From positions 139,001 through 203,000 of the forward strand of contig JAGTXO010000033.1 of the NCBI GenBank assembly GCA_019448385.1: a stretch of 64,000 bases of DNA, read 5' to 3'. Numbering within the stretch: the first letter of the stretch is position 1; the number at the start of each line of letters is the position of its first letter. This stretch comes from Diacronema lutheri (Eukaryota; Haptophyta; Pavlovophyceae; Pavlovales; Pavlovaceae). This document shows positions 6,779 to 15,064 of the stretch, in pieces. The notes under the pieces were generated by a model, which did no database searches, was not told the DNA's origin, and saw only the letters and a list, made by a program, of their open reading frames with translations. The position numbers and the translations under genes were made by a program.

Positions 6779-9700
6779 TCACAGGTCGACAGGGTGCACC
6801 TTGTCCGCATGCTTGCCAGCCTTGGCCGACTTACCAGCACGATGCGGGCTTTTGTCGCCGCCGATGCTGTTCGTCGACCTGTCCGTGTGCCGGTCGCTGT
6901 GCGTCTTGCCCTGTTCCGGTCGGCGGTCCTGCTGCTTGAGCACGTGCAACCCGAGCGTCTCCGACATGGCCGCCGCGACAAGGACGCCGCGCGTCGAATT
7001 GCCGTTCGCGTCGAGCCGCGGCGAGAAGACGGCGAAGCCGCACACGCCCGGCACGACGCACATGATGAGCCCGGCGACACCCGATTTCGCCGGGATGCCC
7101 ACGTCCACAATCCACCGGCCGGCACCATTGTACATGCCGCACGACATCATCACCGTGACCGTGTGGTTGGTCAGGTCCTCGCTCATGGCGCTCTCGCCAG
7201 TCACCGGGTTGACGCCGCGGTTGGCGAACGTGGCCGCCATCACTGCAGCGTCCTCGGCCGTGACGCGCATCGAGCACGCGCGCGTGTACGCGTCGAGCGC
7301 GACGTTCGGGTCTTTCTCGATGATCCCCTTGGCGTGCAGCGTGTCTGCAATCATCTTGTTGTTTGTGTTGGTCGCGGTCTCGGAGCTGAACACGCTCTCG
7401 TCAAGCACGAGCCGCTCGGGCTCCAGCGCCATTTTGCGGCACTGCGCCTCGAAGAAGTTGTACCGGGCTGCCGAGTCGCCGACACCGTCGATCATCGACG
7501 CGGAGACAATCGCGCCGGCGTTCACGTAGCTGGGCGGATCGGAGGTGATCGGTCAGGGCGGGCGCGCGCGGGGGTCACGGGACGGCGGCTCGAGCGACGA
7601 GCGCCAACGACGCGATGCGCGCACGGGTTGAAGGCGCGGTTCTGCGGGTCGATGTTCACCGCGTTGAACGGGAGGCCAGAGGGCTCCTCGCCGATCTTGC
7701 GGGCGACCTCGGCCTGGCCCTTGGCGTCCATGGCGAGCATGTACAAGATGGGCTTGCATGCGGATTGGATGGAGAAGGGCACTCTCGTGTCGCCGACCGA
7801 ATAGAGTTTGCCGTCCAGGTCGCACAGCACGACGCCAAACTTTGCCGGGTCGGCGTCGCGCAGCTCGGAGATGTACCTGCCCGCACAGCGAAGGGCGAGG
7901 GGAAGGCTCGCCAGTAAGGCATCGCTCGCGCCGCGCGCGTGCGCTGCCGCGCGCACTGAGCCGTGTCGCCGTCGTCCTTGTCGAACACCTGCTCATAGAT
8001 CTCTTCGAGCACTTGCTGCACATTGTCCGGCAGCCTCGCGCTGGCGAACTTGGCGGCGAGGTCAAGCCGGCGCTTGTACTGGTAGAGGTAGGCGAGCAGG
8101 CAGCAGATGAGCACGGCCACGCCGCTTGAGCTGCCGGCGACCGCCGCGACAGGAAACGGCTCGCCCTGGTTGTTGATCACCACCGTCGTGCTGCCCCCGC
8201 CACCCTTGTCGCCGCCGTCCACGTCGTCGTCGCTCGTGGGCGCCGGCTCCGAGCGGAGCGTCTCAACCGTCGACCAGCCCGTGACGCCGTCGGATGAGGT
8301 GCCGCGCACGCGAAAGAAGAATGCGGAGCTGGAAGATAAACCCGACACGGTGGCCGACTGCCCGTCGCCGCGGTACACCGTCGCGAGCACGGTCCCGTTG
8401 ATGCTTGCCACGCGCTGCAGCTCGTACCCGGAGAGCAGGTTGGAAGAGCAGCCCGCAAGCTGGCCCGAGGCGCCGGCCACCTTGCTCGCGGCAAGCGAGA
8501 GCCGCTCGTATGCCGAGGGTGACAGCCACCGGGCCGAGACCGATGTTGGCGTCGCTGCGGCGAGCACGGGCCCTTCGGGAATCGCATCGGCTGCCTGGAC
8601 AAACACATCCATCGTCGGCCAGAGCAGCGAGCCGAGGCCGTCGGTGACGAGGCCGGCGATGACGTACGTGAGCCCGTCCAGCTGCACCGCCGCGTGCGAC
8701 GCGTGCTCGCCGGCGGACAGGGTCATCTGCCTGGACCAGCGCTTGTCGGCCGGCGAGAAGACGAGCATGTCGGGTAAAAAGCCGGTGCTCGTGCGACCGC
8801 CGTGCACCGCGAGCAGCTGCTCGCCGGTTGCCGTCTCCCACACAAAAGCGGCGTGCGCGAAGCGGGCGCGCGGCCAGTCAGTAGCTGCGTCGTCCGCAGC
8901 GATCGTCTCCCACCCCACGCCTGGCGTGTACGCGAGGAGGCCGTTCCGCTCGCCGGTCGGTGTCGTGCCGCCAAACACGTACGCGACGCCCCCAATCGCG
9001 GTCATCGTGTGCAGTTGCAGCGGCACGCCCGAGCCCGCCAGGCGGGTCCATGCGCGCGCGGCGATGTCAAGCTGCCACAGGTCGTCGAGAAACTGGCCTT
9101 CGGCGTCGCGCCCGCCGAAGACGAGCATGGTGTCGGGCGAGACCAGCGCGGCCGCGTGCCCGCTCCGCTTGCGCGGCGCAAGGCCGGCGTCGACAGCGGC
9201 CTGCGCCGGCGCGATGGGCTCCTGCCACGTGGCGACGTACGCCGACAGGCTGATCATCCACACGTCGTTTGCGAGCGTGCCGCCGCCGAGATCGCCGCCA
9301 AACACGACCACCGTGCCGCCGCTCTGGACTTGCGTGTGCGCGGTTCGCGGCGCAGGCTCGCCGTACGCGCCCTGCGGCTCCTCGAGCGCCATGAACTGGT
9401 TGTCGAGCGGGATGTAGAGGAGCAGCTCGTTCGTCAGGGCCACGTCGGTCAGCCCTCCAAAGATTGCGATGCGCGGCCGGCCGCCGGCCTCCATGGAGAA
9501 GGCCGTGAACGCGTCCCCGCCCGACAGCTCAAACGACGAAAAGACAGTCGCCGTGTGCCCGGTCCGCGCGCGAATGCCCGGCCACACCGAGCTCGCGGCC
9601 GCGCGCTCCGCCTGGAGGTAGGCGCTGTCCGCGAACGGCGGCGACCGCACGAGGCCGCGCGCGTCGGCATTCACGTGCTCGTTCGGCGCGCCAAGCTGCA

Positions 9701-11010
9701 CCTGGACATTGCCAACCGAGTCGACGCCCGTCGAGATTGTGCCCGTGTTCGCCGCGAAGCGCGCTCGGATCACACCAAGGACGTAGGTCACCGCGGTCTG
9801 CACGGTCGTGCCGAAGGGTGCGGCCGGGTCGCAGCCGCCAACGCCACCGCACGTGAGCGGCACTGCGCACGCGTCGTGGCACGGCGCGAGCCCGACGCCA
9901 TCGAGTGACGCATCAAAGAGGCGGTCGCCGGAGACGAATGGCTCGCCGTCGCGCAGCTTGGACGCGGCCTGGTACACAACTCGGTCGACACGCTTGAGCG
10001 CAGACGTGAGCACCTTGCCCAGCACCGCTGCCTTGGTGCCGCAGTTGGCGTTGGTGTGCCGGTCGATGTCGACCCCGACGACGCCGATGACCGACGAGAC
10101 ATTGGACCCGGCGACGATGCCACACGTGCCCGTGAACCCACCGGCCTCGTAGAGCACGTCGGCACCGTCGGCCGCGAGCTTGCGCGCGACCGCCTCGCCA
10201 CGCGCCGCATCGCCAAAGCTGTTGATGTACTTTGCGTGCGTCGCGCACGGCTTGGCCACGAGCTCGCACGCGTCGCGCACGCCCTTTTGAAACCCGTTGG
10301 ACAGCTTTTGGACTGCGGGCAGCTCGACGCCGAGGACGAGGCCGATGCGCCCCGTCACGGTGACAAGCCCGGCCACGTAGCCGGCCATGTAGCCCGCCTG
10401 GTCCTCGGCGAAGAGGAGGCCGGCCATGTTCGGCGCCACGCCGGCCACCGAGACGTCGACGATGACAAAAGAGGTCTCTGGATGAAGCGCGGCCGCGTCG
10501 GTGATCGCGTTCGTGTTCTCAAAGCCCGCGGCAAAGATGCCAGTGTAGTCCTGGCGCGCGCGCCGGCGCACGTGGTCGCGCGGCTTGGCTGATGGTGCGC
10601 GGTCGCTGAGGGGGCGCCCCCACCAAACGGTCCGTCCGCGGATGGTGCTCGTCACTGCGCGCGGCCCGGCGGGCTCGGCGCAGCGGAGCGGTCGACACCG
10701 GGTGAGCGCTCACCGCATAGGCGGCAAAGACTGGGCGCGTGCTGAGGAGCGCGCAGCTGCTGCTGACCGCGATATCGACGCACACGCTGCTCGGGCTTTC
10801 GTCCCGCACGGCGACGAGGCCGGTGACCGCGAGCTCGAGGAAGCCGCCGTCAAACACGTTTGACGATCCACAATTGAAGAGGAGCAGCCGTGCCTGCGCG
10901 GCATCCGTGCACGCGCAGTTCGAGAGCTCGAGCTTCGTGTCCGGCGAGAAGCACGTCCATTCCGCGCGCGCGACCGTGACGAATACGAACAGGCGTGTGG
11001 TGCGGTGCAT
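6779..11010 (-). CDS. Transmembrane BMP-Kelch-FN3-glutaminase fusion
   Basis: Four exons (10714-11010, 7957-10550, 7625-7876, 6779-7529) join in phase to about 1297 residues. A signal peptide (LFVFVTVARA) is followed by a BMP/PnrA-type periplasmic-binding fold split by intron 1 (LLLFNCGSSNVFDGGF; then GIFAAGFENTNA, NGFQKGVRDACE, SFGDAARGEAVARKL, GADVLYEAGG). Five or six Kelch repeats follow (AIFGG, VVFGGD, LVFGGRD, YVFGG), then an FN3-like domain, an acidic/Gly linker and one membrane helix (GVAVLICCLLAYLYQY), about residues 898-921. The cytosolic part is a complete serine-type glutaminase: LEEIYEQV, FSIQSACKP (SxxK nucleophile), GLPFN, NPYVNAGAI, GIPAKSGVAGLIM and FSPRLDANGNSTRG. Glutaminase releases ammonia from glutamine. 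Introns 2 and 3 fall inside the glutaminase and both neighbouring codons rebuild its motifs, so the fusion is not a frame accident. A Lys/His-rich tail follows. Confidence 0.85.
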
Positions 11011-12470: not shown

Positions 12471-14189
12471 TCAAAACTGCTCGGGGAGAAGGCTCTCGAG
12501 CGCGCGCGCGCGCCGCTCGTCGGGCAGCGCACCGACCTGCTCGTGCCACATGGCGTTCTGCTCACGGTCGAGATGCGGGTTCTCGGGCAGCTCGAAGCGG
12601 TGCGTGGCGTGGTGCTGCGCAAAATAGAGCAGCCGCTTCGGCTTCATCTCGCCCTCGAGGAAGCGGAAGGGCGGCTGCTTGTCCGCGGCGGGCAGCATGA
12701 GGACGATCGGCAGGCCGTGCAGCGGCACGGGTAGCGACGGCGGCAGCGCGTGCGTCGCGAGGTCGAGGCGGCACGGCGCGACCGTGCGCACGCCGAGCTC
12801 GTGCAGCCGCGCCGCCGCCTTTGAAAAGTAGAGCGCCTGCTCGAGGCACGTGTGGCCGCACTGCGCCGACGAGAACAGGAGGAGCAGCACGTCGGTGCGC
12901 ACGTCGCCCAGCGCCTCCTCCGCGTCGGCGGCGGTCAGGTTGCGCACGTGCTCGAGGCCGCGCGGCGTCGCCGGCGTGTACACGCCGCCGCCTGCGAGCG
13001 GCACGGGGCCGGCGGGCGGCGGCGCGTCGCCGCGCGGCGTAACCGTGTCCTCGGGCAGTTTGGGGCGCAGCCTGCCAGCGAGGTAGTCGGCGACAAAGCC
13101 GCGCACGGCGCCGGGCTCGGCGATGCGGAGTTGAGGGCCGTCATACGGGTAGCGCGCGTGCTCGTCCTTGGTGTTGAGCGCCATCGCAGGCAACGCGTCG
13201 CCCGTCAGACCGAGCGCGATCTTGCGGTAACGGAATTTGACACCGTCGCACAGGACGAAGACACACCGCCCGTCAAACTCGGGCGCGACCGCGTCGAGCG
13301 CGGCGCGCTCGGCGCGGTAAGACTGCGCGGGGTCGACAAAGACGATGAGCATCGGTAGCTCCGATGCCGCGTACGTGTGGAAGTTGGCCTCCGTCAGCCA
13401 CGAGACGCGCGGGAGCGACTTGCGCGTCGCCCAGAGTGCGAGCGAGAGTCCACCGTCAAGCTGCTCGTCAAGGTTGGCGTGCGCGCGGGGCTGCGCGCCC
13501 GGCCCGACCCAGAGCGCGATGGAGGGCGTGCGCTCCACCCATCTCCTGCGCCTCGCTAGCTCGACGAGGTCGTCCGCGCTGAGCGTCGCGCGCGCGACGA
13601 CGACGGGCGCGTCGGGACGCGACGCACGCAGCGCGTCCGCGAGCTCGGCCAGGTCGTCGAGCTCGTCGGCCTCGTCGTCGTCCGGGCTGCGAAAGAGGCC
13701 AATCGCGAGCACGTCCGCCTCGCCGCGCGGCGCGCCCTGCAGCTCGTCGACCGCGCCGAGGCCGGGCGCGAGCACGCGCACGCGCGGCGCGACGCGCGAG
13801 CGCGCGTACGAGGCGAGCGCGAGCGCGTCGTGCGAGCCCTTGTACTGCTGGTGGCGCCTACCGTGCTCGGTGAGTAGCACGATGGCAGGCAGGCTTGTCG
13901 CGTCGTACCGAGCGGCCAGCTCCTTCTCGGCGGACGCGTCCACGCGCGCGAGCGGCACGGGCGGCGCGCCGGCCGCGTACGCGGCGTACTCGGGCTCGTA
14001 CGATCGGCAGAAGCGGCAGCCTGGCGAAGAGAAGGCGAGGAGCAGCGCGCCGCCGCTCTCGGCGAGGCGTGCCCTGAGTGAAGCCTTGCTCACGTTGAAC
14101 GAGCCCGCCGACAGCGCGGCGGGCAGCGCGTCGTCTGGCGGGGCGCTCAGCGCAGCGGCGCCGAGCGCGCCCAGGAGCACCCACCGCAT
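12471..14189 (-). CDS. Secretory thioredoxin-fold (PDI-like) protein
   Basis: Single open frame of about 572 residues, starting at the ATG that gives a clean signal peptide (MRWVLLGALGAAALSA). The first thioredoxin domain has FSSPGCRFCRSYEPEY, a CxxC site (CRFC) in the family position, then the cis-Pro strand SLPAIVLL. Central sequence looks like redox-inactive b/b' domains (LPMLIVFVDPAQSYR, then a fold-like FDGRCVFVLCDG). The C-terminal thioredoxin-like domain has LLLLFSSAQCGHTCLEQ, with a non-canonical CGHTC, and HGLPIVLML as cis-Pro strand. No KDEL-like signal (ends LLPEQF). Likely an ER or secretory-pathway oxidoreductase or chaperone; a true isomerase is not proven. Its start lies 30 bp from that of the gene on the other strand. 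Confidence 0.75.
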   Translation of the reverse strand: MRWVLLGALGAAALSAPPDDALPAALSAGSFNVSKASLRARLAESGGALLLAFSSPGCRFCRSYEPEYAAYAAGAPPVPLARVDASAEKELAARYDATSLPAIVLLTEHGRRHQQYKGSHDALALASYARSRVAPRVRVLAPGLGAVDELQGAPRGEADVLAIGLFRSPDDDEADELDDLAELADALRASRPDAPVVVARATLSADDLVELARRRRWVERTPSIALWVGPGAQPRAHANLDEQLDGGLSLALWATRKSLPRVSWLTEANFHTYAASELPMLIVFVDPAQSYRAERAALDAVAPEFDGRCVFVLCDGVKFRYRKIALGLTGDALPAMALNTKDEHARYPYDGPQLRIAEPGAVRGFVADYLAGRLRPKLPEDTVTPRGDAPPPAGPVPLAGGGVYTPATPRGLEHVRNLTAADAEEALGDVRTDVLLLLFSSAQCGHTCLEQALYFSKAAARLHELGVRTVAPCRLDLATHALPPSLPVPLHGLPIVLMLPAADKQPPFRFLEGEMKPKRLLYFAQHHATHRFELPENPHLDREQNAMWHEQVGALPDERRARALESLLPEQF

Positions 14190-14219
14190 CTCGCGGCGTG
14201 TGCCGTCTATTTCACAATA
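14190..14219. promoter_or_regulatory. 30-bp divergent intergenic region
   Basis: Only 30 bp separate two divergent ATGs, including TATTTCACAATA. If both starts are right, promoter elements must overlap the coding regions or act downstream. Confidence 0.4.
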
Positions 14220-15064
14220 ATGGCGGAGCAACGGTCGACGGCCGATGAGGCCGTCCACGAGGACCTGCTCTCGACCGAGCTACTCGACGCGCCGACGAGC
14301 GCGTCCGCGGCGAGCGACATCGCGGCGGTGGCCTACTCGCTCGACACCGACATTGAGCGGTGCGTGCCGCGCATTCGCGCCGCATGCGCGTCGCCGCGAG
14401 GCGCGCCGCCGCGCCTCACGCGCGCTGCGCTGAGCGCCGGCGCGCGCAGGTTTTTCGATGAGCTGACGATCGCCGAGTCGACGTACACGCCGTCGAGCAC
14501 GCTTGAAGAGTGCGCGCGCGCGCGGCGCCGAGAGCGGCGTGCGGGCGCTCTCCACCGACCGCGCACGCGCCGCGTTGCGCCGCGCCTCGCTCGGCCGCCG
14601 CGGCCCGCAGGGTGCTCGAGGAACGGCGGGAGCGCGCCGAGCGGCGCGAGCGCATCAGGCAGCGTACCGACGAGCTGCTGCAGGCCGCGCTTGCCAACGA
14701 GCACCACGCGTCCGACGTCCGCCTGCTGAGCGAGGCTGTCCACTCGCTTGGCGACAAGCAACCGCCGCCGCAGCCGGCCCACACTCCGGCGCACGCTGCG
14801 GACGGCGGGCAGCGCGGCGCCGAGGGGGCATGTGCGAGCGCTGGCGCTGAGACGCACGAGCTGCAGCTTGACGTCACGTACCCTGCGTTCGGCTCGGTCG
14901 ACGGCTCGCGGCTCGGCGGCGCGGACGGCAAGGCGGCCGAGCTGAAGCGCGAGGCAGACCTCCTGCGCGCCTACCTGCAGCACGGCGCCTACGCGGACGC
15001 GTACAAGGCCTTCATCGACAAGGCCAAGGCGGACGATGGCGTGGCAATCGCTCGGGGCCTGTGA
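14220..15064 (+). CDS. Acidic/coiled-coil protein, unknown function
   Basis: Two exons (14220-14509 and 14611-15064) join in phase across an intron starting GTGCGCG and ending CCGCAG, giving about 247 residues. The N-terminal third is acidic (DEAVHEDLLSTELLDAP, SLDTDIERCVPRIRAA) and contains FFDELTIAEST. The intron junction rebuilds a continuous helix (LEERRERAERRERIRQRTDE) predicting a coiled coil, followed by a Pro/Gly-rich linker and a conserved-looking C-terminal helix pair (LLRAYLQHGAYADAYKAF). No family recognised; the size and layout recall small adaptor or vesicle-tethering subunits, which is only a guess. Confidence 0.65.

Follow-up and report, generated by a model that had tools for sequence, protein, structure and literature searches.

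A predicted membrane-spanning glutaminase with a BMP-type ectodomain in the haptophyte Diacronema lutheri

Glutaminases of the PF04960 and TIGR03814 families, among them human GLS and GLS2 and bacterial GlsA, possess a full catalytic domain with an SxxK motif and additional catalytic residues, and they lack an ectodomain. Receptor guanylyl cyclases of the ANF receptor type combine a periplasmic-binding-protein-type ectodomain with one membrane helix and an enzyme that acts as a dimer; known receptor enzymes act via kinases, phosphatases or cyclases. A further relevant class is furnished by the Dictyostelium Grl family-3 G-protein-coupled receptors, such as GrlJ, from which the BMP ectodomain on eukaryotic receptors is known (PMC1885808). 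Here, we describe a gene that unites elements of these systems, located in a 64,000-nucleotide stretch of the Diacronema lutheri genome (GCA_019448385.1, contig JAGTXO010000033.1, positions 139,001 to 203,000), which is referred to as the window. The predicted protein product carries a signal peptide, a BMP/PnrA-type ligand-binding domain, Kelch repeats and a single membrane helix in front of a complete glutaminase.

Each described system corresponds to a part of this layout and departs from the rest. The window glutaminase aligns over the whole catalytic domain of the human GLS/GLS2 structures, while the pocket that binds inorganic phosphate (Pi) in the mammalian enzymes is not conserved in the algal proteins. 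The Grl receptors share the signal peptide and the BMP/PnrA-like ectodomain on a eukaryotic membrane receptor, but they are of the G-protein-coupled type, with seven membrane helices and no enzyme. The output of receptor guanylyl cyclases makes a second messenger, whereas that of the window protein would be an enzyme that breaks down glutamine. Placement by motif gives likely equivalents, in the window protein, for the aromatic sandwich and the ribose-binding Asp and Lys residues of PnrA, BmpA and BmpD; in contrast to these substrate-binding proteins of ATP-binding cassette importers, the window BMP domain is joined to Kelch repeats, a helix and an enzyme. The PstS phosphate-binding proteins are relevant to a paralogue on contig 11 only, which conserves phosphate-binding motifs and differs from PstS in that its tandem domains are fused to a helix and a glutaminase. 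A search of the open-licence PMC literature returned neither a receptor or membrane-anchored glutaminase nor a PstS-type algal receptor; PMC3429862 concerns phosphate transporters. As far as this literature was searched, the window protein is a single-pass receptor enzyme in layout with an output undescribed for that class, which agrees with the statement in an earlier note on this DNA that no protein of its kind had been described.

Gene structure and domains of the window protein

The window gene (C13) lies on the minus strand, with the start codon at 11010 and the stop at 6779. Four exons (11010-10714, 10550-7957, 7876-7625 and 7529-6779) join to encode 1,297 residues without an internal stop, and the three introns (163, 80 and 95 nucleotides) each begin with GT, end with AG and have a length not divisible by three. 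Guanine-cytosine content at codon positions 1, 2 and 3 (65.6, 50.6 and 87.5%) is what coding sequence of a GC-rich genome should show. The four-exon model of the earlier note, with two introns inside the glutaminase, is thus reproduced, and its claim that the junctions there restore family motifs is borne out by the contig 11 paralogue: the intron at DTAQ|YIS is absent from the paralogue, whose sequence reads straight through, and the intron at NP|YVNAG is common to both genes. The window gene, in turn, has uninterrupted sequence at two introns of the paralogue; the paralogue cross-checks part of the predicted splicing. Intron 1, across which the signal peptide and the BMP N-lobe are joined to the rest, is the least supported and is not covered by any paralogue; its backing is confined to its GTGAGC donor and to the solved Lbp structure, which aligns in part.

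That neighbouring genes are read through by chance, which the earlier note had considered unlikely, is rejected because the ectodomain, the membrane helix and the first glutaminase helix, and with them the fusion point, lie in one 2,594-nucleotide exon, and because the paralogue has the same layout. Bacterial contamination is ruled out by the introns and by the paralogue, which is 72% identical, has introns itself and lies on a contig of 852 kb. Genes of D. lutheri NIVA-4/92 were called using BRAKER2 with RNA sequencing (PMC8379373); the word glutaminase is absent from the main text of that genome paper.

The glutaminase domain spans residues 960-1244 and matches PF04960 over profile positions 1-285 of 286 (E 8e-97, 324 bits versus a cut-off of 27); it also exceeds the TIGR03814 equivalog cut-off (296.5 versus 255.4 bits). 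The catalytic residues S1002, K1005, Y965, N1051, E1098, N1105, Y1129, Y1181 and V1199 are kept; among their human counterparts, we take Y249, N388 and V484 to be the ones that complete the set. The others, S286, K289, N335, E381, Y414 and Y466, are named in papers including PMC10770349 and PMC13142944. Judged by these positions, the catalytic residues are intact, as had been claimed, and glutamine hydrolysis is predicted. Of the five mammalian Pi-pocket residues listed in PMC10770349, R317, K320, R387, Y394 and K398, only the last is kept in the two receptor-type D. lutheri genes, which have P, A, N, T and K at these positions. Direct phosphate activation as in mammals is not supported by these residues, and control of the algal glutaminase, if any, must therefore use another route.

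Upstream of the glutaminase, a single membrane helix at approximately residues 899-921 agrees with the earlier proposal; a further hydrophobic stretch (1198-1216) falls within the glutaminase and is also present in the paralogue. The helix and the signal peptide were called by hydropathy, without a dedicated topology predictor. By that call, the hydropathy profile and the basic juxtamembrane segment fit a single-pass receptor enzyme with the order signal peptide, ectodomain, one helix, enzyme.

Within the ectodomain, a Pfam search of the joined protein recovered both the BMP and the Kelch domains that had been proposed. PF02608 matches residues 104-319 (E 2e-25, 89.7 bits versus a cut-off of 24.1, profile positions 64-267 of 301) and matches this genome only once; PF24681 matches residues 555-732 (E 3e-34), with Kelch_4 at E 9e-23. 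The FN3 domain of the earlier note did not hold up at this level, with E 0.11 on the whole protein and 20.3 bits versus a cut-off of 25 when the region was scanned alone; the label is weak, and the region may still have an FN3-like fold. Five other matches to the Kelch/FN3 part were found in the genome at E 1e-5 or better (33–40% identity) among the 90 of 174 candidates scored. The closest solved relatives of the BMP domain are Streptococcus pneumoniae PnrA structures (E 3e-25), and the Lbp structure 7x0r aligns across the N-lobe encoded by exon 1, with DGSFNQ opposite DGGFLEL. Pocket residues shared by the BMP family are named by BmpA number in PMC13325309. For BmpA F27, D98, F176, V224, D225 and K242, the window counterparts are F57, D131, F211, V259, D260 and K285, an equivalence by motif placement and not by BmpA alignment, in which F151 was not placed with certainty; in S. 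pneumoniae PnrA, the residues opposite D131, F211, V259, D260 and K285 are the same, and F57 aligns with Lbp. Based on this pocket, the BMP domain is a putative nucleoside-binding domain, a nucleoside being the most likely ligand.

A second receptor-type glutaminase and the exchange of modules

The genome contains at least three loci matching the Pfam Glutaminase family: the window gene, the contig 11 gene (C11) and a locus on contig 37. The C11 gene has six exons and encodes 1,287 residues comprising a signal-peptide-like start, two PBP_like_2 (PstS-like) stretches, one helix and a glutaminase at residues 901-1185 (E 4e-99). BLAST aligns the two proteins, at 72% identity, only from window residue 886-890 onward, that is, over the last extracellular residues, the helix, the juxtamembrane segment, the glutaminase and part of the tail; between the two ectodomains, outside this shared module, there is no BLAST match. 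The fused form of ectodomain, helix and glutaminase is present twice within the D. lutheri genome. The two glutaminase domains share 240 of 285 residues, and the ratio of nonsynonymous to synonymous substitution rates (dN/dS) rises from 0.21 in the glutaminase (dS 0.55) to 0.54 in the helix and juxtamembrane segment and 1.17 in the tail; the glutaminase is under purifying selection between the paralogues.

The first PstS domain of C11 keeps the GAGAT, GSS, SD and RNDGSGTT motifs, behind which we presume the PstS contact residues to lie, open papers having given no listing of them. This N-terminal domain scores below the TIGR00975 cut-off (166.6 versus 205 bits), and the second half of the ectodomain has a PBP_like_2 match of its own and barely resembles the first (E 0.003). 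In a tree of 54 glutaminases, in which seven bacterial row ends were set to a common default and are a few to ~17 residues off, the two receptor-type genes cluster, and the contig 37 glutaminase sits on a very long branch, its placement unsure. The contig 37 match (L009:2389-4290, plus strand) is a frame of 633 residues that is hydrophobic in a stretch near its N-terminus; its catalytic domain is divergent, with VSTGA in place of the VNAGA of the others.

The PstS-type ectodomain of C11 is itself found above another output. It matches, at 39–40% identity over 843–890 aligned positions, an open frame of 2,434 residues on contig 86 (C86), which runs on through one helix into a nucleoside-hydrolase-like domain; this similarity spans the ectodomain, helix and juxtamembrane segment and gives out near C11 residue 884, at the start of the enzyme. 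The juxtamembrane segment and the start of the hydrolase-like domain of C86 match, at 58% identity over 122 residues, a protein on contig 54 (C54) in which they follow an ANF_receptor ectodomain. The possibility that the nucleoside-hydrolase receptor of C86 is a one-off is ruled out by C54, a second case from outside the list of 41 family matches. The C54 ectodomain weakly matches a further ANF_receptor protein on contig 74 (C74; 29% over 198 positions), the cytosolic domain of which, lacking a Pfam match, we take to be TIR-like from its FISHQW motif. The linked set therefore reads BMP-Kelch and glutaminase (C13), tandem PstS and glutaminase (C11), tandem PstS and hydrolase-like (C86), ANF and hydrolase-like (C54), and ANF and another domain (C74). 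Proteins of this one genome exchange whole ectodomains and whole outputs to either side of the membrane helix, a two-sided pattern typical of modular receptors.

We also searched for fused forms elsewhere. A hydrophobic helix, defined as a 19-residue window with a mean hydropathy of at least 1.8 between the preceding stop and the domain start (the match-start region covered), was found ahead of the glutaminase in 0 of 51 bacterial relatives, a narrow, pattern-picked sample (98 stretches matched the pattern) mostly from Acinetobacter and actinomycetes; the highest window scored 1.26. Glutaminase is present in 54 of the 249 Pseudomonadota genomes sampled. The two longest frames there (1073 and 739 residues) were opened, and their upstream parts look like spurious open frames without a helix; seven more frames of 622–652 residues were left out, except for one (G003) that is among the bacterial relatives (L048). 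The viral contigs searched held no relatives of the membrane-glutaminase module or of the PstS part.

A putative receptor enzyme and its alternatives

The structure of the window protein is real and unusual. We propose that it is a type I single-pass receptor enzyme in which a Venus-flytrap ectodomain gates glutamine hydrolysis, and assign this reading a rough probability of 0.58; the topology, dimer, ligand, gating and location are what we infer. The signal peptide would direct the BMP/Kelch ectodomain to the cell exterior or to the lumen of a vesicle, with one helix spanning the membrane and ~17 juxtamembrane residues leading to the glutaminase on the cytosolic side. On binding a nucleoside, the BMP Venus flytrap would close and alter how the paired membrane helices of a dimer are spaced or twisted; the helix shift would move the N-termini of the glutaminase dimer and switch the hydrolysis of cytosolic glutamine, with glutamate and ammonium as products. 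Since the N-terminal end of the glutaminase is attached to the membrane helix by these ~17 residues, it could be driven by movement of the helices within a receptor dimer (compare PMC10770349). C11 would work likewise with its PstS-type (phosphate) ectodomain, so that the enzyme itself would be the output that links nitrogen metabolism to the outside supply of nucleoside or phosphate. The receptor-like layout put forward in the earlier note gains strength from this paralogue, in which the same membrane-glutaminase module sits under another nutrient-binding ectodomain; its FN3 label is the weak part.

Several observations weigh against this reading. The signal peptide is short, and the exon 1 N-lobe of the BMP domain is divergent, the Pfam match beginning only at profile position 64 of 301. 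BmpD has an Asn beside the pocket Phe (Phe27-Asn28) where the window protein has Leu, so the ligand may differ. In the linked set, the nucleoside-hydrolase-like domain of C86 scored 27.1 and 32 bits against PF01156 in two scans, both below the cut-off of 34.2. AlphaFold2 prediction of exon 2, run without an alignment, gave a mean confidence (pLDDT) of 33.5 and was uninformative on dimer and topology. Lastly, both algal genes have P and A at the activation-loop positions R317 and K320 of human GAC, an enzyme that the K320A change renders constitutively active.

These activation-loop residues, together with the loss of the Pi pocket, are what a constitutive, tethered enzyme would display: an always-active glutaminase placed under the membrane near uptake systems, with the ectodomain serving binding, adhesion or placement without gating. 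Kelch and FN3-like modules do often serve adhesion. Bacterial glutaminases, moreover, are said in a 2026 review to need no Pi (PMC13142944), and the algal enzyme may be always on and merely tethered because of this precedent and the Ala at the K320 position. On the other side, both ectodomains retain residues that probably form a small-ligand pocket, and the swapping of ectodomains and outputs at the membrane resembles that of sensor families; neither point is decisive, and the tethered enzyme is the main alternative, one that we regard as rather unlikely. Improbable, in our estimation, is an internal sensor operating in the vacuole, the plastid envelope or an endosome on lumenal nucleoside or phosphate from digestion, although a signal peptide and one helix are all that is seen, no feature fixes the plasma membrane, and the Dictyostelium BMP receptor GrlJ, tagged with green fluorescent protein, was located at both plasma and internal membranes (PMC1885808). 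That two adjacent genes were read as one is highly improbable: intron 1 rests on splice signals and a partial similarity match, but the uninterrupted exon described above, and a large exon of the paralogue's own with the same layout on another contig, speak against it.

Extending the receptor-enzyme reading to the linked set, we tentatively suggest, at somewhat less than even odds, that haptophytes use combinatorial single-pass receptors in which bacterial-type BMP, PstS and ANF-type ectodomains directly gate cytosolic hydrolases (glutaminase, nucleoside-hydrolase-like) without a kinase, cyclase or G protein. To our knowledge, the sensing of phosphate and organic nutrients by marine algae is poorly known. 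If the combinatorial reading is true, phosphate and nucleoside supply would be set against glutamine use, and a receptor with glutamine hydrolysis as its output would short-circuit nutrient sensing to metabolism. The C13/C11 pair constitutes a natural experiment, with one output beneath two ectodomains; swapping these can probe ligand and gating.

Feature coordinates and side observations

Table 1. Coordinates of the window gene, its predicted parts and the linked receptor-like proteins (window positions unless a locus or contig is given)
Feature	Coordinates	Strand	Basis
Whole gene, receptor-like glutaminase	6779..11010	-	Joined exons translate without stop; GT-AG introns
Exon 1: putative signal peptide and BMP domain start	10714..11010	-	Hydropathy; Lbp 7x0r alignment
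Exon 2: most of BMP, Kelch, FN3-like region, linker, membrane helix, juxtamembrane segment, first glutaminase helix	7957..10550	-	Single open frame, 2,594 nucleotides
Putative signal peptide	10963-11010	-	Hydrophobic stretch LFVFVTVA, then ARA|E; judged by hydropathy
BMP/PnrA-type ligand-binding domain, residues 17-345, interrupted by intron 10551-10713	9813..10962	-	PF02608; outer limits by eye
Kelch repeat region, residues 419-738 (Pfam match 555-732)	8634..9593	-	PF24681, Kelch_4; outer limits by eye
FN3-like / purple-acid-phosphatase-N-like region, weak	8256..8573	-	Region scanned alone: fn3 E 6.7e-4, PF16656 E 0.0012, both below cut-off
Low-complexity extracellular linker; paralogue alignment starts close to its end, at residues 886-890	8154..8255	-	Comparison with C11 paralogue
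Single membrane helix, residues 899-921	8085..8153	-	Hydropathy; recognisable in C11 paralogue and C86
Basic juxtamembrane segment YQYKRRLD...	8034..8084	-	YKRRLD identical in C11 paralogue
Glutaminase domain and N-terminal helix, introns 7877-7956 and 7530-7624	6941..8033	-	PF04960 1-285/286; TIGR03814
Catalytic S1002-x-x-K1005	7753..7764	-	Alignment and motif check
Basic C-terminal tail, poorly conserved, dN/dS 1.17 over 45 aligned codons	6782..6925	-	Codon comparison with paralogue
C86: tandem PstS-like domains, one helix, nucleoside-hydrolase-like domain, long low-complexity tail	L024:1818-9119	+	Similarity; Pfam below cut-off
C54: ANF_receptor ectodomain, one helix, hydrolase-like start as on C86	L108, contig 54 32869-33807	-	
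C74: ANF_receptor ectodomain, one helix, then other cytosolic domain with FISHQW motif	L107, contig 74 273347-274504	-	

PstS-like ectodomains also occur together with ephrin-receptor-like Cys-rich repeats at two further loci, L025 (minus strand, contig 11 near 312 kb) and L026 (contig 9 near 1.96 Mb); both proteins end, by eye, in several membrane helices, and L025 has a TRP match below cut-off. The expansion of the nucleoside-hydrolase family in D. lutheri is striking: there are 41 matches in the genome, 16 of them in frames of more than 1,000 residues. Twelve of these loci were opened and frames obtained for six; a DPGPDPDD motif stands near the frame start at 6 of the 12 (L036, L040, L045 and others). 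Some of the frames carry, by eye, WD40-like repeats, or several helices and TIR-like ends. On the minus strand of the window, positions 12471-14279 hold a 602-residue open frame that is, by eye, thioredoxin/protein disulfide isomerase-like.

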